Source: Rheinheimera pacifica
GTDB taxonomy: Bacteria > Pseudomonadota > Gammaproteobacteria > Enterobacterales > Alteromonadaceae
Direction: 5' to 3'
Length of the DNA: 64,000 bases
Assembly: GCF_900108485.1 (NCBI RefSeq)
Contig: NZ_FNXF01000016.1
Location: 1-64,000, forward strand
Shown one piece after another: positions 14,429 to 56,850 of this stretch; the first letter of the stretch is position 1; every line of letters begins with the position of its first letter. The position numbers were made by a program, and so were the translations under genes. The notes under the pieces were generated by a model. The model searched no databases. It had not been told where the DNA came from and saw only the letters and a list, made by a program, of their open reading frames with translations.

Positions 14429-17293
14429 GTGAGAACAGGCACTTACTGCTTATTGCTATTGATCTGGCTGTTTACCCTGCCTGCCCATGCATTTCATGCT
14501 GAAGTTAACATGCTACACAGCCCGCTGCCAGAACAGCAGCGCCTGCAGCAGGTTTATTTTCAGGTTACACCGTCGCAACTGGGCCTGGACGATATTTTAG
14601 CAGACCCGGAAAAGCAGCATGCGTTTAGCTTACTTGCGCCCTCGCAGCAGGTTTTGTTTGCCGAACATCAGGTAGTATGGCTATTTGCCCGCCTGCAGAA
14701 CAACAGCCACCTGAAACGACAAGTCGTGCTGGAATATGATTTTCCGATGGCTGATAAAATTGAAATCTACCAGCGCAACAGACAAACGCAAGACGTCCGC
14801 CTGCTTAGCCGCTCGGGTAATGATTACCCGTACACAGAGCGTGCTTTACCCTATCGTAGTTACGCTGTCAGCCTGAACCTTGCTGCACACGAGCAAACCG
14901 ATATTTTTATACGCGTACAAGACGCCGCGTTAGTACCCAGTGACTTATTGTTATGGCGCTATAACAGCTTTATTGCTTACTCGCAAAAGGCAGCTATTCT
15001 GGATGGCCTGTTGCAAGGCGTGTTATTGCTACTGGCATTTTATAATCTGGTGCAATTTTTCCGTTTAAAAGCTAAAAACTATCTGTATTACAGCGCCTTT
15101 TTTGTCAGCTTCGCTCTGGTTATTGCCGTACTTAACGGTATGGCTTTTGCGATGCTATGGCCAGGCCACCCGGAAGTAAATCAGGCTATTTTATATATCA
15201 GCGTCGGTACCGCACTATTGTGCCTGAACTTATTTATTCACCACGCTTTACAGCATTTATATACCCCCTTGTGGCGCAGGCTTAGCCACGCCAGTAGTTT
15301 TGCCGCTATGTTGCTGTTGTTCAGCCCGCTATATGCTTCTGGCCAGTTGCGGCTGTTGCTGTTGTTTCTGGCACTGGGCTGGGTACTTGGCAGCAATATT
15401 ATACTGGCCGTCCGCTTCACGCTGGCAGGCCAACCACAAGCCCGCGCTTTTGTCTGGGCCTGTGTCTTTACGCTGTGCAGTGCCTTGTTACTGACACTAA
15501 GCCAGGCCGGATATCTGAACACCGGTTTTGACTGGCTCTACCTGCTGCAATTATTAATGCTGTTCAGCCTGGCATTAACCAGCTTTGGTTTGCAAAAAAT
15601 ACCGCGCCAGAGTGACGCAAACAGCTTAAGTATTAGCCAGTTACAACAGTACCATGATATTTTTCATAATGCCGTTGAGGGTATGTTTACCACCACTTTG
15701 GATGGCAAACTGTTAAACGCCAACACCGCCTTGCTGAATATTCTGGGTTACAACACTCTGGATGAACTAAAACAAGCTGTGAGTGGCAGCGGCATGGCAC
15801 GTTTTTATGCCGACCCGGCCGAGCGGCAAATGCTGGTGCGCCAGTTAGAGCTTGGCAACAACAAAAGCTTTGAAATTCAGGGGTTACGCGCCGACCACAG
15901 CCGGTTCTGGGCGTTGATGTCGGCCCGGCTGGCGCGCTCAGTAAATGATCGCGATGCTTTTGTACATGGCTCTGTTATTGATATTACCGAACAGAAACTG
16001 GCTCATGAACAACTGGCCTATCTGGCGAACCACGACAGCCTTACTGCACTGTATAACCGTTTTTACTTTGAACAGCAGTTGCAGGCACTGTGTCAGCAAG
16101 GCGGCGCTACGGCCGGCTGTATGCTGTATATTGATATTGATCAGTTTAAGCTTATCAATAACAACTGCAGCCATAGTGCCGGAAATGCTTTACTAAAACA
16201 GCTTAGCGAAGTGTTTAAACGTACACTTGGCCACAATGGCCCGCTGGCCCGGCTCGACAGCGACGAGTTTGGTGTCTTGCTAACCGGCAAAAATGCCAAT
16301 GAAGCCTTTGCTCTGGCCTACCGTTTACTGGACGCCGTAAAAGAATTCCGTTTTATCTGGCAAGACAGCATTTACCCCATCAGTGTCAGTATTGGTATCG
16401 CTGAAATCAGCGGCAATAATATTGTCGCCGATGATGTTATTAAGCAGGCCGATGCCGCCTGCAGCATTGCCAAAGATAAAGGCCGCAACCGTATTCAGCT
16501 GTTTGACAGCAACGATCTGGAAACCCAGCGCCATCAGGCAGAGATGCAATGGGTTGCGCAACTGCGTGATGCCATCACACAAGACCGTTTTGTCCTGTAT
16601 CAGCAGCCCATTCAGGCATTAAAACAGCAAAGCAGTGGCCTGCACTATGAAGTACTATTGCGCCTGCATGGTGAAGACAATACCCTGATTGGACCCGGCA
16701 GCTTCCTGAGCTCTGCAGAACGTTTTGGTTTGATGCCACAAATCGACCTGTGGGTTATTCGCCATTATTTCCGCTGGTTGCAGCAGAACCCGCAGCATCT
16801 GCAACAACTTGAGCTGTGCTGTATTAATTTGTCTGGCAGCTCGCTGGTCGACAGTGGTTTTAAAGAGCAGGTACAGCAACTATTTACTGACTATCAGATC
16901 CCCTATCAGCGTATCTGTTTTGAGATCACTGAAAGCGTGGCCATTGTGAACTTACAAAACACGCTGAGCTTTATTCAGTTCTTTCGTGGCCAGGGCTGCC
17001 TGTTTGCGCTGGACGATTTTGGCAGTGGCTTTTCATCTTACAGTTATCTGAAGCACTTTCCGGCCGATTTTATAAAAATTGACGGTCACTTTGTGCGTGA
17101 CTTGCTGGACGATCAATACGATAAAGCCATAGTAAAATCTATCCACGAGGTTGCCAAAGCCGTGGGTATGCGAACTATTGCCGAATATGTTGAAACCGAA
17201 GCTGTGCGCGACGCCCTGCAACTGCTGGGGGTAGATTATGTGCAAGGCTACGCCATAGCGCGGCCAATGCCGTTACTGGCGTTATCTGTTTAA
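14429..17293 (+). CDS. 7TM-PAS-GGDEF-EAL c-di-GMP phosphodiesterase
   Basis: A 954-residue membrane protein predicted to hydrolyse c-di-GMP. In order: signal peptide (1-21); periplasmic 7TMR-DISMED2-type domain (about 30-175); seven membrane helices (about 190-385); PAS domain (about 405-520); GGDEF domain in which the signature is degenerate (SDEF near residue 611), so cyclase activity is unlikely; and a full EAL domain with EVL near 741, INLSG, FEITES, LDDFGSG, KIDG and AEYVE, so catalysis looks intact. The start is a GTG with GGAGAAA upstream. The periplasmic domain class usually senses small molecules or carbohydrates; the ligand is unknown. Confidence 0.9.
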   Translation: MRTGTYCLLLLIWLFTLPAHAFHAEVNMLHSPLPEQQRLQQVYFQVTPSQLGLDDILADPEKQHAFSLLAPSQQVLFAEHQVVWLFARLQNNSHLKRQVVLEYDFPMADKIEIYQRNRQTQDVRLLSRSGNDYPYTERALPYRSYAVSLNLAAHEQTDIFIRVQDAALVPSDLLLWRYNSFIAYSQKAAILDGLLQGVLLLLAFYNLVQFFRLKAKNYLYYSAFFVSFALVIAVLNGMAFAMLWPGHPEVNQAILYISVGTALLCLNLFIHHALQHLYTPLWRRLSHASSFAAMLLLFSPLYASGQLRLLLLFLALGWVLGSNIILAVRFTLAGQPQARAFVWACVFTLCSALLLTLSQAGYLNTGFDWLYLLQLLMLFSLALTSFGLQKIPRQSDANSLSISQLQQYHDIFHNAVEGMFTTTLDGKLLNANTALLNILGYNTLDELKQAVSGSGMARFYADPAERQMLVRQLELGNNKSFEIQGLRADHSRFWALMSARLARSVNDRDAFVHGSVIDITEQKLAHEQLAYLANHDSLTALYNRFYFEQQLQALCQQGGATAGCMLYIDIDQFKLINNNCSHSAGNALLKQLSEVFKRTLGHNGPLARLDSDEFGVLLTGKNANEAFALAYRLLDAVKEFRFIWQDSIYPISVSIGIAEISGNNIVADDVIKQADAACSIAKDKGRNRIQLFDSNDLETQRHQAEMQWVAQLRDAITQDRFVLYQQPIQALKQQSSGLHYEVLLRLHGEDNTLIGPGSFLSSAERFGLMPQIDLWVIRHYFRWLQQNPQHLQQLELCCINLSGSSLVDSGFKEQVQQLFTDYQIPYQRICFEITESVAIVNLQNTLSFIQFFRGQGCLFALDDFGSGFSSYSYLKHFPADFIKIDGHFVRDLLDDQYDKAIVKSIHEVAKAVGMRTIAEYVETEAVRDALQLLGVDYVQGYAIARPMPLLALSV

Positions 17294-50294: not shown

Positions 50295-50389
50295 AAAACT
50301 TTTTTTTGCTGTTTTTGCGTCAGTAAGTTTGCTGAAAGACAACTTAACGGAAAGTAGCTGCCATGCCCGATCTAATAAGGAAGCAGAAC

Positions 50390-51559
50390 ATGAAAAGGTC
50401 ACATCAGGTTGTTTTAATAGCCACAGTGTTTGTGGTGGCCATTACAACGGTAATAGTCATCGCCGCTGATACGCCGGCTCCCCCTCCCGGCATTGCGGCC
50501 GCTAAGCCAACGTTGACAGTTAACCTGGCGACACCGCAACTTATAGTATTGCCGCTGACAATATCGGCCAATGGCAGTATCAGCGCCTGGCAGGAAGCCA
50601 TTATCGGTAATGAAACCGACGGTTTAAGGCTGGCACAAGTGAATGTGAATGTTGGCGATATTGTACAGCGTGGCCAGCTGCTGGCGACTTTCGCTGCAGA
50701 TACGGTTAAGGCAGAACTGGCACAAAGCCAGGCTGCGGTGGCAGAAGCCGAAGCGGTACTGGCTGAGGCTGCCGACAACGTAAAGCGTACTATTGAACTG
50801 CAAAGCAGCGGCGCGCTGTCTGCACAGCAAATTCAGCAATACCGCACCACAGAGAAAACCGCACAGGCCAGGCTTAAATCGGCACAAGCTCAGCTGGACA
50901 CCCAGCAACTACGCCTGAAACAAACGCAGGTGCTGGCACCTGACAACGGCATAATTTCTGCCAGAACCGCCACTGTCGGCGCTGTGTTGCCGGTAGGCCA
51001 GGAGCTATTCCGGCTGATCCGCGGTAGCCGGCTGGAATGGAGGGCTGAAGTGTCCGCACAGGATTTGGCAAAACTGCAACCGGGACAAATGGTACAGGTT
51101 ACCCCGGTCGGCGGTAACACCATCACAGGTTCGCTGCGTATGATAGCGCCGGTGGTAGATACCCAAACCCGCAATGCTTTGGTTTATGTTGATCTGCCTG
51201 TCGATAGCACCACCCGGGCTGGTAGCTTTGCCCGCGGTCAGTTTGACCTGGGTGCCGCTGAGGTACTAACACTGCCGCAAAGTGCCGTGCAACTGCGGGA
51301 TGGTTTTAGCTATGTACTGCGTGTAGGCCCGGATGGCCGCGCCAGGCAAACCAAAGTCAGCACCGGGCGGCGCACTGCTGATTTGGTGGAAATTACCAGC
51401 GGCATTACCCCGGCTGATCAGGTTGTTGCCACAGGCGGTGCCTTTCTTGGCGATGGTGATTTGGTGCAGGTTGTCCCCCTCCCCACCGCCACGCGGCCAG
51501 CAGTAAAACCCAATACAACCCCAGCGGCTGTCACCGCTTCATCAGACGAAGCGATGTAG
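50390..51559 (+). CDS. RND efflux periplasmic adaptor
   Basis: A 389-residue membrane-fusion protein. The ATG at 50390 has GGAAG upstream. An N-terminal anchor helix (about 8-24) is followed by a lipoyl/biotinyl motif split around a helical hairpin (about 100-170: AELAQSQAAVAEAEAVLAEA), beta-barrel (QDLAKLQPGQMVQVTP) and a membrane-proximal domain (GDGDLVQVVPL). There is no lipobox. It partners the permease that begins 13 bp later. No TolC-type gene lies beside them. Confidence 0.91.
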   Translation: MKRSHQVVLIATVFVVAITTVIVIAADTPAPPPGIAAAKPTLTVNLATPQLIVLPLTISANGSISAWQEAIIGNETDGLRLAQVNVNVGDIVQRGQLLATFAADTVKAELAQSQAAVAEAEAVLAEAADNVKRTIELQSSGALSAQQIQQYRTTEKTAQARLKSAQAQLDTQQLRLKQTQVLAPDNGIISARTATVGAVLPVGQELFRLIRGSRLEWRAEVSAQDLAKLQPGQMVQVTPVGGNTITGSLRMIAPVVDTQTRNALVYVDLPVDSTTRAGSFARGQFDLGAAEVLTLPQSAVQLRDGFSYVLRVGPDGRARQTKVSTGRRTADLVEITSGITPADQVVATGGAFLGDGDLVQVVPLPTATRPAVKPNTTPAAVTASSDEAM

Positions 51560-51571
51560 CCGGAGTACAAA

Positions 51572-54500
51572 ATGAATTTAAATATCTCTACCTGGGCCAT
51601 ACGCAACCCTACGCCGGCTATTCTGCTATTTATTCTGCTGACCTTTGCCGGAATTATTAGTTTTCGGGCGATGAAAGTTCAGGATTTACCTGATCTTGAT
51701 TTACCCACTGTTACCGTAACAGTGGCGTTGCCGGGGGCTTCTCCGTCGCAACTTGAAACCGATGTGGTACGTAAAATCGAAAGCTCTCTGGCTATCGTGC
51801 AGGGCGTTAAACATATATACAGCAACCTGACCGATGGTGAAGCCAGTATTTCGGTAGAGTTCCGGCTGGAGCGTTCGATACAGGAAGCCGTTGATGATGT
51901 ACGCGATGCGGTATCGCGCATCCGGGCCGATTTGCCGTCAGACTTGCGCGATCCGGTAATAAAAAAGGAAGAATTGTCCGGCTCACCTATTCTGACTTAC
52001 AGCCTGAGCTCAGCACAGATGGATAACGAAGCCTTATCCTGGTTTGTTGATAACGACATCAGCAAAGCTCTGCTGGCAGTTCGGGGCGTGGGTGCTGTTA
52101 GCCGGGTGGGTGGCGTTAACCGCGAAATACGCATTGATCTGGATTTTGCCGCCCTGCTGGCATTCAATACCACTGCCGCCGATATTTCACGCCAGTTACG
52201 GCTGGTGCAGCAGGAAGCTGCCGGGGGCCGCGCCCATTTTGGCGGTATGGAACAATCGGTAAGAACCATTGCTACCGTGCAGTCGGCTGCAGAGTTCGCC
52301 GCTATGGAACTTACTTTAACTGATGGCCGCAGGTTGCGGCTGGATCAAATAGCGACAGTGTCTGACACCGTGGCCGAGCAACGTTCTGCGGCCTTTCTTA
52401 ACGGCGAAGCTGTGGTCGGTTTTGAGATCACTCGCGCCATCGGTTACGGCGAAATTGAAGTAGCAGAAGGGGTACGGGCGGCACTGCAGCAGCTACAAAC
52501 TCAGCGGCCGGATATCAGCGTAACAGAAGTGTTTAACCTGATTGACCCGGTAGCGGAAAACTATGCCGGTTCCATGCAGCTACTATATGAAGGTGCCTTG
52601 CTGGCGGTACTGGTGGTATTTCTGTTCTTACGCGACTGGCGCGCCACCTTTATTTCTGCGCTGGCACTGCCTCTGTCTATTATCCCCACCTTTATGGTGA
52701 TCCATATGATGGGCTTTTCGCTCAATACCGTCACTTTATTATCGTTATCTTTGGTGATCGGGGTGTTGGTTGACGATGCTATCGTTCAAATTGAAAACAT
52801 CGAGCGCCACTTGCTAATGGGCAAAACGCCTTACCAGGCTGCTATGGAAGCTGCCGATGAAATAGGTCTGGCAGTGGTTGCCACCACCTTTACATTGATA
52901 GCGGTATTTTTACCCACCGCCTTTATGAGCGGCGTAATAGGCAAGTTCTTCGTACAGTTTGGCTGGACAGCCGCCATAGCAGTGCTGTTTTCCCTGCTGG
53001 TGGCCCGCATGCTTACGCCAATGATGGCCGCGTACCTGCTGCGCTCACCCCAGTTGCAAAATAAGCAGCAGGTTAAAGCAGAGCCGGGTTGGATCCGCCA
53101 CTACCTTAATCTGGTGACCTGGTGTTTGCAGCACAAAAGTACAACCCTGGCTGCTGCGTCAGTATTTTTTGCTGGCGGTATTATGCTGGCCATGGTACTG
53201 CCCGGTGACTTTATGCCGGCAGATGACAATCAGCAAACCCAGGTTACGCTTACACTGCAGCCTGGCACTAAATTGCAGGACACCGTCGCCCTGGCTGAAC
53301 AGGCGCGCCAGATACTGCAGCAAAATGAGCATGTAAAACAGGTTTACACTGCTATTGGCAGTAGCAGCTCGGGTGCATTTAATGACGCAGGCAGCACAGC
53401 AGCCAGTGTGCGCTCTGCGGTACTAACACTTAGCCTTACCCATCGGCATCAGCGGGCTGGCTTACATAAACAACAAATTGAACAGCAACTGCGCGACATG
53501 TTAAGTACATTGCCGGGTGCCAGGGTTAAAGTCGGTATGGGCGGAAGCGAAAACTATATGCTGGTGCTGGCCGGCGAAGATAGCCGTATTTTACAGCAAC
53601 ATGCACTGCAGGTAGAGCGCGAACTGCGCGCTATCCCAGGCATTGGTGCCGTTACCTCAACGGCCAGCCTGGTACGGCCGGAGCTGATTGTTACCCCTGA
53701 TTTTGCCCGCGCAGCCGACCTTGGTGTAACCTCCTCGGCCATTGCCGATACGCTGCGGGTTGCCACCTCCGGCGACTATGATCAGGACTTACCCAAGCTT
53801 AACCTGAGTGAACGCCAGGTACCGGTAGTAGTGCGCCTGAACGATATCGCCCGCGAAGACTTTGACACCTTTAAACGCTTACCCATACCCGGTGCCCGCG
53901 GTCCGGTAGCACTGGAAAACGTCGCCCGGCTGGAAATAGGCAGTGGCCCGGCTGAAATTGCCCGTTTTGACCGGATGCGTAATATTAACTTTGAAGTAGA
54001 GCTAAACAACCTGCCGCTGGGTGTGGTTGAGCAGGCTGTACTGGCGCTGCCAAGCCTGCAAACCCTGCCGCCCGGTGTGTTCCAAACTACATTGGGCGAT
54101 GCTGAAATGATGGGTGAACTCGCCAGCGGTTTCGCAGTGGCCATGTTAACCGGCGTGATCTGTATTTATATGGTGCTGGTGTTGTTACTAAAAGATTTTA
54201 TTCAGCCGCTAACTATCCTTACCGCGCTGGTTCTTTCTGTACCGGGTGCCTTTCTGGCGCTGTTTTTAACCAATGCCGCACTGTCGTTACCGGCAATGAT
54301 TGGCTTAATTATGTTAATGGGTATCGCCACCAAAAACTCTATTCTGCTGATTGATTACATCATCATTGCCAGACGCGAACACCAGCTGAACCGCTGGGAT
54401 GCCGTGATCGACGCTTGCCGCAAACGGGCGCGGCCAATAGTGATGACAACCATTGCCATGGGCGCCGGCATGATGCCGATCGCCTTAGGTATGGGCGGCG

Positions 54501-54661
54501 ATCCGGGCTTTCGCGCCCCGATGGCAATTGTCGTTATTGGTGGTCTTATCACCTCTACCTTTCTCAGCCTGCTGGTAATACCGGTGGTGTACAGCTGTGT
54601 AGATGATGTTTTACAGTGGCTAAAACCGCGGTTGCGCCGCTTTTCGCCGCTTAATCATTAA
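51572..54661 (+). CDS. RND efflux permease
   Basis: A 1029-residue inner-membrane pump of the AcrB/MexF superfamily with twelve helices and two large periplasmic loops. The proton relay is present: VLVDDAIVQIEN (about residue 400) carries the Asp pair and TKNSILLIDY (about 920) the Lys. The start has AAAATG with a weak leader after the adaptor stop. The trimeric pump should expel hydrophobic or amphipathic compounds. Regulation from the shared divergent promoter by the adjacent two-component system is likely. Confidence 0.94.
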   Translation: MNLNISTWAIRNPTPAILLFILLTFAGIISFRAMKVQDLPDLDLPTVTVTVALPGASPSQLETDVVRKIESSLAIVQGVKHIYSNLTDGEASISVEFRLERSIQEAVDDVRDAVSRIRADLPSDLRDPVIKKEELSGSPILTYSLSSAQMDNEALSWFVDNDISKALLAVRGVGAVSRVGGVNREIRIDLDFAALLAFNTTAADISRQLRLVQQEAAGGRAHFGGMEQSVRTIATVQSAAEFAAMELTLTDGRRLRLDQIATVSDTVAEQRSAAFLNGEAVVGFEITRAIGYGEIEVAEGVRAALQQLQTQRPDISVTEVFNLIDPVAENYAGSMQLLYEGALLAVLVVFLFLRDWRATFISALALPLSIIPTFMVIHMMGFSLNTVTLLSLSLVIGVLVDDAIVQIENIERHLLMGKTPYQAAMEAADEIGLAVVATTFTLIAVFLPTAFMSGVIGKFFVQFGWTAAIAVLFSLLVARMLTPMMAAYLLRSPQLQNKQQVKAEPGWIRHYLNLVTWCLQHKSTTLAAASVFFAGGIMLAMVLPGDFMPADDNQQTQVTLTLQPGTKLQDTVALAEQARQILQQNEHVKQVYTAIGSSSSGAFNDAGSTAASVRSAVLTLSLTHRHQRAGLHKQQIEQQLRDMLSTLPGARVKVGMGGSENYMLVLAGEDSRILQQHALQVERELRAIPGIGAVTSTASLVRPELIVTPDFARAADLGVTSSAIADTLRVATSGDYDQDLPKLNLSERQVPVVVRLNDIAREDFDTFKRLPIPGARGPVALENVARLEIGSGPAEIARFDRMRNINFEVELNNLPLGVVEQAVLALPSLQTLPPGVFQTTLGDAEMMGELASGFAVAMLTGVICIYMVLVLLLKDFIQPLTILTALVLSVPGAFLALFLTNAALSLPAMIGLIMLMGIATKNSILLIDYIIIARREHQLNRWDAVIDACRKRARPIVMTTIAMGAGMMPIALGMGGDPGFRAPMAIVVIGGLITSTFLSLLVIPVVYSCVDDVLQWLKPRLRRFSPLNH

Positions 54662-54831
54662 GCGTATCGCAGCTGAGCGGGCTGGTAGCGTTGTAACAGC
54701 CCTATCTCGTCTGCTAACAACCTTGTAGCGCTAACAGTTTCACTTGCTGTATCTTTGTTTCGGTTGTTACAACACCTTTGCCCAATGTTGACTAAGCTGA
54801 TTTTTAGCTGTAACCGCAAACAGGACTAAAA

Positions 54832-55803
54832 ATGAATTTTTTCAATGAATTACTAAACGGTGATTTTATGCCGCATGGCCATTGTTTGCTATGGCGCACC
54901 GATTTACTGCTGCTACATGTGGGGGGCGATACGCTGACATTTATCGCCTATATGCTGATCCCGATAGCCTTGATAAGGCTCGTAAGGGCAAGGGATGATC
55001 TGCGCTTTGACTGGATGTTTCTGCTATTTGCCGGTTTTATCTTTTTCTGCGGCGCCACCCATATTCTTGGCATTATCAATGTCTGGCATGGCTATTACTA
55101 TATTCACGGCATTATAAAGTCGATGACCGGCATTATCTCCATCCTGACAGCGATATTACTCTGGTACTTGCTGCCGCAGGCGATAAGCTTACCCGGCAAA
55201 CGTGCTATGGAGGCTAAAATTGTGGCACTGATGCGGGCTGAACATGAACTGGCCGCATCGAACCAGCGGCTGGAAGCTGAGGTAAAAAAACGTACGGCCC
55301 AGTTGGAGAAAATGGCCACCACGGATGAGCTGACAGAGCTGTTAAACCGGCGCGAAATTATGCGCCTGCTTGAGCTGGAGGTTGCCCGCGCTGATCGCCA
55401 GGGTGCTGCGCTGAGTATTATGATGCTGGACCTGGATCACTTTAAGGCGATAAACGACAGTTATGGCCATCAGGCCGGCGATCGGGCCTTAAAAAGTGCC
55501 GCTGAAACTTTTAAACAACAGCTGAGAAAAACCGACTTTATCGGCCGCATTGGCGGCGAAGAGTTTCTGGTTCTTTTACCCGACACCAATATCAGCAGTG
55601 CTTGCGTGCTTGCCAACCGCATTCGTCAGGCTTTGGAACAGCAAACCACCGACAACTCTGCAATACCAACCTGTACCGCCAGCATAGGGGTGACACAATA
55701 TATCGCCTCTGACGATCTGCACAGTTTAATCCAGCGCGCCGATGAAACTCTGTATCAGGCAAAATCCAATGGCCGTAATTGTGTGTATCAGTCACCAGAC
55801 TAA
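54832..55803 (+). CDS. Diguanylate cyclase with ethylene-receptor-like domain
   Basis: A 323-residue membrane protein predicted to make c-di-GMP. Residues about 25-125 form three helices very like the ethylene-binding domain of ETR1: Asp33, Tyr40, Ile43-Pro44 and CGATH (Cys73, His77) match ETR1 Asp25, Tyr32, Ile35-Pro36, Cys65 and His69 with the same spacing. These residues bind the copper cofactor and ethylene. A coiled coil (about 130-165) leads to a GGDEF domain with LDLDHFKAINDSYGHQAGD, intact GGEEF (241-245) and the inhibitory I-site RKTD (232-235). The 170-bp upstream gap has no other gene. Confidence 0.9.
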   Translation: MNFFNELLNGDFMPHGHCLLWRTDLLLLHVGGDTLTFIAYMLIPIALIRLVRARDDLRFDWMFLLFAGFIFFCGATHILGIINVWHGYYYIHGIIKSMTGIISILTAILLWYLLPQAISLPGKRAMEAKIVALMRAEHELAASNQRLEAEVKKRTAQLEKMATTDELTELLNRREIMRLLELEVARADRQGAALSIMMLDLDHFKAINDSYGHQAGDRALKSAAETFKQQLRKTDFIGRIGGEEFLVLLPDTNISSACVLANRIRQALEQQTTDNSAIPTCTASIGVTQYIASDDLHSLIQRADETLYQAKSNGRNCVYQSPD

Positions 55804-55845
55804 CGCCGCCACAACCGTCGTTGCGTACTGCGCAGCAAAGCAGAA

Positions 55846-56850
55846 TTATAGTTTGCCTGGTTGCAGCTTAATCCGCAGTAAATAACGGCTGGCGGTGATA
55901 TACAGCCAACTGTTGTCACGGCTTAACGCCACATTGGCCGCAGCTACACCGGTTTGTATTGTGCCAAGGTGTTCACCCTGTGGCGATAACAGCCAAACGC
56001 CACCCGGCCCGGTGGCTAGCAATACGCCTGATGGCAGCACTTTTAAGCCATCGGGCAGGCCGCTGGCAGTTTTAGTTGCATCTGTGGCATCAAAAAACAG
56101 CTCGCCTTTCGCCAAACTGCCATCGGCGTTAACAGCATAACGCCACCACTGCGCTGCCGCAGGGTCAGAATTGGCAACATACAGCCATTGCTCGTCCGGT
56201 GAAAACGCCAGGCCATTCGGTCGTGTTAAATTATCAGCTAACAGCGTGATCTTGCCATCTGGTCCCAGCCGGTATACGCCATTTACGCTTTGCTGTTTTT
56301 GCGCTGAATCATCACCGCCTTTTAAGCCATAAGGCGGATCAGTAAAGTAGTAAGCACCGCTGCTATGCTGCACCAGATCATTCGGGCTGTTTAGCAGTTT
56401 GCCCTGATAATGGCTCACCAATGTCTGATAACGCGGTAATTTGCCGGAGGCATCCTGCAACAGCGCCAGGCGCCGATCGCCATGCTGCGCCAGCACCAGC
56501 TGATTGTCGGCATTAAAGATCAGGCCGTTGGCACCTTCCTGCAGATTATTCTCCGGGTACAGGCCACTATAGCCAGAAGGCTGCAGATATACCGTTAAAC
56601 CGCGTGCTTCACTCCAGCGGAAAACTTTATTCTCCGGTACATCGGAGAACAGAATATCGCCGGTATCAGGCTCGGCTACCGGCCCTTCTGCCCAGCGAAA
56701 GCCTGTGGCCAGCTGCTCCAGCGTTGCATCTGCAGCCACTAACTGCTGCATTTGCGGCTTAAGTGTTAATACCGGCTGTGCCGGCCAGGGCGGGTTGGCA
56801 GCCAGTGCCGGGGCAATAAGTAAACACAGTGCAAAAGCTGAAAAACGCAT
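55846..56850 (-). CDS. Secreted SMP-30/gluconolactonase-family protein
   Basis: A 334-residue exported six-bladed beta-propeller with a signal peptide (cleavage after LAA, near 18). Family landmarks are GFRWAEGPVAEPDTGDILFS (metal-binding Glu), NSPNDLVQHSSGAYYFTDPP, and RPNGLAFSPDEQWLYVANSD. These carry the divalent-metal ligands of gluconolactonase-type enzymes. The substrate could be an aldonolactone or similar ester. The gene stands alone, and 91 bp upstream of it lies the convergent-free start of map in the same direction. Confidence 0.88.
   Translation of the reverse strand: MRFSAFALCLLIAPALAANPPWPAQPVLTLKPQMQQLVAADATLEQLATGFRWAEGPVAEPDTGDILFSDVPENKVFRWSEARGLTVYLQPSGYSGLYPENNLQEGANGLIFNADNQLVLAQHGDRRLALLQDASGKLPRYQTLVSHYQGKLLNSPNDLVQHSSGAYYFTDPPYGLKGGDDSAQKQQSVNGVYRLGPDGKITLLADNLTRPNGLAFSPDEQWLYVANSDPAAAQWWRYAVNADGSLAKGELFFDATDATKTASGLPDGLKVLPSGVLLATGPGGVWLLSPQGEHLGTIQTGVAAANVALSRDNSWLYITASRYLLRIKLQPGKL

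Follow-up and report, generated by a model that had tools for sequence, protein, structure and literature searches.

Locus and domain architecture

The window, by which we mean the whole stretch of 64,000 nucleotides analyzed, corresponds to bases 1-64000 of one contig of the source genome (4.46 Mb in 46 contigs). It contains a gene that joins a membrane sensor of the ethylene-binding type to a diguanylate cyclase in a single chain, with the following features in and around it:

50363-51559 and 51572-54661, plus strand: RND efflux-like gene pair, named by eye
54832..55803, plus strand: EBD-GGDEF gene, ethylene-binding-type membrane sensor and diguanylate cyclase (ATG start, 323 aa)
54868..54885, plus strand: N-terminal MPHGHC motif, residues 13-18, present in many of the sampled bacterial ETR1_N proteins
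54904..55191, plus strand: ETR1_N domain (PF25487), three predicted helices, with D33, Y40, I43, P44, I70, C73, H77, and K96
55198..55320, plus strand: linker helix, residues 123-163, a single predicted helix entering the GGDEF domain, putatively a coiled coil
55315..55779, plus strand: GGDEF diguanylate cyclase domain (PF00990), with GGEEF at 241-245 and the I-site RKTD at 232-235
55846-56850, minus strand: gene convergent with the fusion gene

Pfam assigned residues 25-120 of the 323-aa protein to ETR1_N (110.2 bits against a cut-off of 27, E 6e-32) and residues 162-316 to GGDEF (156.6 bits, E 6e-46), while a Cas10 palm model also scored over its threshold (29.8 bits against a cut-off of 27), with a match that overlaps GGDEF. 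These were the only Pfam matches, and a kinase domain (HisKA/HATPase) was absent. Among the NCBIfam models, the general GGDEF domain was above cut-off and all matching named equivalogs (cyclases and GGDEF-bearing phosphodiesterases) were below it, so the protein belongs to none of these named cyclase types. The closest named relative was that of Rheinheimera sp. EpRS3, with 97% identity.

The gene starts 170 bases past the second member of the RND-like pair, on the same strand, and a promoter scan of positions 54600-55900 gave no site upstream of it. It is the only ETR1_N gene in the source genome, which has 50 GGDEF matches (two of them in one frame, hence ca. 49 domains) and 23 EAL matches; with such numbers, one cyclase may matter little globally. 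The window also contains one of the other proteins of this kind, a GGDEF-EAL protein (964-aa frame) at 16025-17266.

Residues of the sensor pocket

The preliminary description, made from the sequence alone, had likened the membrane domain to that of plant ethylene receptors, and both the Pfam assignment and the identity to AzoEtr1 of Azospirillum (38% over 143 aa) bear this out. The residues it listed (D33, Y40, I43, P44, C73, and H77) are all at the places given, so that its six ETR1 contacts are present; the required set, however, has seven members and not six, the seventh being I70. We take Y32, I35, P36, and I62 to be the ETR1 numbering of four of these seven. The requirement of seven residues for ethylene binding in ETR1, and the residue numbers C65, D25, H69, and K91, are from excerpts of PMC11819568. 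From P44 to C73 there are 29 positions, the same step as from P36 to C65 in ETR1; the claim of identical spacing thus holds, with 28 residues in between instead of the 29 originally counted. The output lysine, K91 in ETR1 and K98 in AzoEtr1, has its counterpart in K96. The ETR1_N profile matched none of 14 control genomes and, judged from profile and residues, the sensor is a genuine member of the ETR1_N family. The N-terminal HGHC motif is a possible extra metal site.

Comparison with known receptors

Plant ETR1 and cyanobacterial SynEtr1 have a three-helix N-terminal domain with the seven residues, as predicted for the window protein, and in these two receptors it binds copper and ethylene. 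Their outputs are of the kinase type, in contrast to the GGDEF domain found here, and SynEtr1 also senses light; this comparison follows published descriptions (excerpts of PMC6682694 and PMC11819568). According to excerpts of PMC6682694, plant receptors have two N-terminal cysteines and cyanobacterial receptors one.

AzoEtr1 allowed a direct alignment, using the sequence read from an A. brasilense Sp7 plasmid (525 aa from its Met). According to excerpts of PMC11819568, the first 130 residues of this 525-aa protein bind ethylene, and D35 and C75 were altered to give forms predicted not to bind. The BLASTP alignment with the window protein was gapless through the sensor, pairing D35, C75, H79, and K98 with D33, C73, H77, and K96, and all seven residues plus the lysine are shared. 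The two differ in what follows, since the AzoEtr1 sensor is followed by PAS and histidine kinase domains, with the response regulator encoded by a gene of its own (excerpts of PMC11819568), whereas in the window protein the sensor leads directly into GGDEF.

Four ETR1_N proteins from Catenovulum and Hahella (L084-L087; 386-902 aa) have the same seven residues as the window protein, but the GG[DE]EF motif was not found in them and a kinase output is assumed. Two others, L090 and L093, have an ETR1_N-PAS-PAS-GGDEF arrangement, so that sensor and GGDEF share one chain in this order, as in the window protein, but with PAS domains intervening and with each departing from the seven residues at one position; in L090, the start of an EAL domain was also seen.

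Distribution of the sensor and of the fusion

To search for relatives, an 18-member alignment was used to scan a species-genome collection (84,980 species), requiring one of two short peptide patterns, one of them the MPHGHC motif. This gave 57 loci, 50 of which proved on reading to be full-length direct fusions, a lower bound given the pattern requirement. Of the other seven, four (L084-L087) had no GGDEF motif, two (L054 and L088) were truncated at contig ends, and one, the Methylophaga sulfidovorans copy, was interrupted by an early in-frame stop (L061, 6001-6060); other Methylophaga have intact copies. Hosts of the fusion include Rheinheimera, Arsukibacterium, Alteromonas, Paraglaciecola, Aliiglaciecola, and Catenovulum, together with Halioglobus and Haliea (Halieaceae), Dasania, Reinekea, and Methylophaga. 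The link between sensor and cyclase first noticed in one gammaproteobacterium is therefore present, not as a single case but as a clade found in many Gammaproteobacteria.

Within the genus of the window, 17 of 31 genomes had ETR1_N above cut-off, and the 16 loci besides that of the window were all read and are all fusions. The remaining 14 genomes had no ETR1_N gene over the cut-off, which indicates that the gene is dispensable. One of them, G005, contained a weak below-cut-off match with stop codons, but its interpretation as a decayed copy was not supported (tblastn of the window protein against this locus gave chance-level matches only, best E 4.6), and the genome was counted as lacking the gene. 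ETR1_N was above cut-off in 60 of 246 genomes of the family, in 12 of 369 from an even sample of the class, and in 28 of 398 of the phylum.

In these wider groups, the sensor mostly carries other outputs. Among 49 loci outside the window-type fusions (from the genome, genus, class, and phylum surveys plus AzoEtr1, with ca. 500 aa downstream covered), a GGDEF domain in the same frame was found only in L090 and L093 and not in the other 47. In the family survey, none of the 23 newly read loci among the best-scoring 30 had a GGDEF domain in its own frame within the stretch covered. Ten other-output ETR1_N proteins classified by Pfam comprised five with a kinase, two with GGDEF, two with no further domain, and one with PAS only. 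The two without any output domain (L002 and L092) are ca. 200-230 aa long; L092 adjoins a divergent gene resembling a receiver-GGDEF protein, and further short ETR1_N frames (185-194 aa) appeared in the family survey. With the window protein alone as query, which reaches close relatives only, no viral carriage was detected in IMG/VR. The window sensor matched 18 plasmid records, all at <60% identity, and one ETR1_N-type protein (L131) lies on a plasmid of Pseudanabaena sp. PCC 7367 typed as conjugative.

Conservation and selection

D33, Y40, I43, P44, I70, C73, H77, and K96 were invariant in all 50 full-length fusions, and the pocket residues were kept down to 48% pairwise sensor identity. None of these eight sites falls within the two patterns by which the relatives were recruited, while conservation of MPHGHC among the scan relatives is partly built in, the motif being itself a search pattern. 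Adding the window and L005 (L010-L025 were omitted as copies of named loci), the seven residues were kept in 52 of 52 fusions versus 31 of 53 other ETR1_N proteins sampled, a contrast that is suggestive only, as the groups differ in breadth and discovery route. Loss of the pocket does occur: Cys or His is missing in some of the other proteins (L097, L098, L125, L126, and L128). Close relatives lacking Cys73 and His77, which the preliminary description had named as evidence against its reading, were not found among the fusions: all 52 keep both.

Selection was estimated on 15 gene copies of equal length (105 pairs). Sensor dN/dS had a median of 0.055 (range 0.033-0.204, 60 usable pairs), compared with 0.124 in the linker (0.01-0.603, 62 pairs), and 0.124 in the cyclase (0.083-0.222, 33 pairs), where the usable pairs differ by region and the ranges overlap. 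In all four listed comparisons involving the window, the sensor had a lower dN/dS than the cyclase. Of the two domains, the sensor thus seems to evolve the more slowly.

Cyclase domain and predicted structure

The GGDEF domain had been described as intact in both active site and I-site, and the GGEEF (241-245) and RKTD (232-235) motifs agree with this. D200, K205, N208, and D209, which we take to be the metal and substrate residues of the domain, were invariant in the 50 full-length relatives, as was GGEE; F245 was replaced by Y in one, and R232 and D235 of the I-site were kept in all.

An AlphaFold2 model (monomer only, alignment of 47 sequences) predicted helices at 23-53, 61-86, and 89-119, then the 41-residue linker helix (123-163), followed by the GGDEF domain. 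Mean pLDDT was 82.6 and pTM 0.55, with sensor blocks at ca. 63-79 and values below 50 for most of residues 1-21. From this moderate-confidence model and the hydrophobic sequence, we infer that the three sensor helices cross the membrane. Helices 1 and 2 are connected by an arginine-rich loop, and the linker begins with basic residues; by the positive-inside rule, this points to an N-terminus outside and a C-terminus inside, as in ETR1.

No solved structure of the sensor appeared among 56 sequence matches at E <= 0.01, among the 60 listed of 75 matches at E <= 10, or among the best 50 of 552 Foldseek matches. The last are GGDEF proteins, judged by titles and sequence matches, and include a GCN4-WspR fusion and a phytochrome cyclase. 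One solved chain, 8qj3, named as an ammonium transporter, also combines a membrane module with a C-terminal GGDEF match; its sensor is unrelated by name.

Phylogeny of the sensor

A tree was built from 96 sensors and 129 columns after dropping nine sequences (L097-L099, L105, and L124-L128); the program warned of few columns and of some long outside branches. The 52 fusions formed one side of a branch with support of 100/98, recovered in 100% of 200 bootstrap trees. The Catenovulum and Hahella proteins without GGDEF adjoined this clade with weak support (83/64). Within it, the Paraglaciecola hydrolytica copy (L049, 67% identity to the window) was nested in the Rheinheimera/Arsukibacterium group (18 members, 99/97), pointing to a likely transfer of this Rheinheimera-type copy between families. 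L090 and L093 were placed away from the fusions, so that the pairing of sensor and GGDEF probably arose more than once.

Genomic neighborhood and separate GGDEF genes

No neighbor cluster recurred in more than 8 of the 52 loci, with clusters defined at >30% identity so that distant kin may be missed. A conserved partner gene was discarded as a candidate on this count, and the fusion protein probably works alone, with no obligate partner suggested. In four Arsukibacterium loci (L040, L041, L044, and L081), the fusion gene is closely preceded by genes for a ca. 420- to 427-aa protein of one cluster (probably GGDEF), for a ca. 655- to 687-aa protein, and for one of 164 aa.

Outside the fusions, long ETR1_N genes stand head to head with a receiver-GGDEF-like gene in L008, L116, L128, and L136 (receiver assigned by eye; L128 matches ETR1_N weakly), pairs that represent a possible two-component route from the sensor to c-di-GMP. 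A divergent GGDEF gene also adjoins the ETR1_N gene in L137, L138, L141, L142, and L145; together with L136, these account for 6 of the 23 loci newly read in the family survey, several of them from one genus. A separate GGDEF gene was present in the stretch in 5 of the 49 loci outside the window-type fusions, on the same strand in L130.

A single fusion event may have given rise to a dedicated family of one-component ethylene-to-c-di-GMP receptors, spread by descent and some transfer among aquatic Gammaproteobacteria, with the sensor repeatedly tied to c-di-GMP (direct fusion, PAS-GGDEF(-EAL), and head-to-head genes). In this scenario, which we rate slightly short of an even call, ethylene of algal, plant, or photochemical origin would act in water as a general cue to settle or swim.

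Proposed signaling mechanism and alternatives

We consider it probable that the protein is a complete receptor in which Cu(I)-bound ethylene, or a similar small olefin, sets the diguanylate cyclase activity through a putative coiled coil. The three membrane helices would form an ETR1-type pocket, with the N-terminus outside. Cys73 and His77 in helix 2 would hold Cu(I), with assistance from Asp33 on helix 1 and Lys96 on helix 3, and ethylene or a close small olefin would bind the copper. The resulting shift would pass from helix 3 along the linker helix (123-163) to paired GGDEF domains, altering c-di-GMP synthesis, and the product would inhibit the enzyme at the RxxD I-site. The copper, ligand, dimer, topology, signal transfer, sign, and biofilm outcome in this scheme are all inferred from the family; the preliminary description, too, had worded the step from ethylene to c-di-GMP conditionally.

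As to the sign, ethylene negatively regulates the cyanobacterial receptor (excerpts of PMC7700396), and by analogy with such ethylene-repressed receptors we guess that it would lower cyclase activity here. Ethylene reduced c-di-GMP (by metabolomics) and biofilm in A. brasilense, whereas in Synechocystis it raised biofilm (excerpts of PMC11819568), and these opposite effects make the sign uncertain. The effects of SynEtr1 and AzoEtr1 on biofilm, and that on c-di-GMP in A. brasilense, are not known to be direct.

The same copper pocket could instead read another signal (copper status, CO, acetylene, isoprene or another small olefin, or redox), ethylene not being the natural ligand. Many of the carrier genera, which we take to be marine or freshwater, are no obvious plant-root set, some are methylotrophs, and the extra HGHC motif could bind metal. 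Copper-type P-ATPases, with four frames over cut-off in the genome, carry little weight, being found in 13 of the 14 controls too. The invariance of the seven residues and K96 speaks against such a signal, including as it does Y40, I43, P44, and I70, not expected at a metal, and so does the lack of a neighbor cluster in more than 8 of the 52 loci, although, the clusters being unnamed, some of the copies may have a copper gene next to them. We regard this alternative as unlikely, yet the most serious competitor to ethylene sensing.

It is considerably less probable that the sensor is a mere membrane anchor and dimerizer for a cyclase that is constitutive or otherwise regulated, e.g., by expression. 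Membrane-anchored GGDEF proteins are common and ligand binding by the fusion is deduced from its sequence, but pocket residues invariant in 52 of 52 fusions would be needless in a bare anchor, and the sensor seems to be under stronger constraint than the catalytic domain. A chance resemblance to ETR1, conceivable when the first reading relied on six residues of a hydrophobic domain, has practically no probability and was ruled out by the ETR1_N and GGDEF scores of 110.2 and 156.6 bits, the profile E of 6e-32, the absence of matches in the 14 control genomes, and residue conservation down to 48% sensor identity.

Implications and precedents

With sensor and cyclase in one chain, direct control of c-di-GMP by ethylene could be tested with one gene, and the fusion protein could serve as a compact ethylene biosensor. 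To our knowledge, few gases set c-di-GMP; if the ethylene reading is true, a plant or algal hormone gas would join them, and it may control this signal in one step.

Full-text literature searches, in which the sources were available in part, returned no description of an ETR1_N-GGDEF fusion; earlier surveys may list GGDEF outputs. SynEtr1 and AzoEtr1, receptors with tested ethylene binding, have kinase outputs (excerpts of PMC6682694 and PMC11819568). In Geitlerinema, a gene with a diguanylate cyclase domain is grouped with GeiEtr2 (excerpts of PMC6682694).
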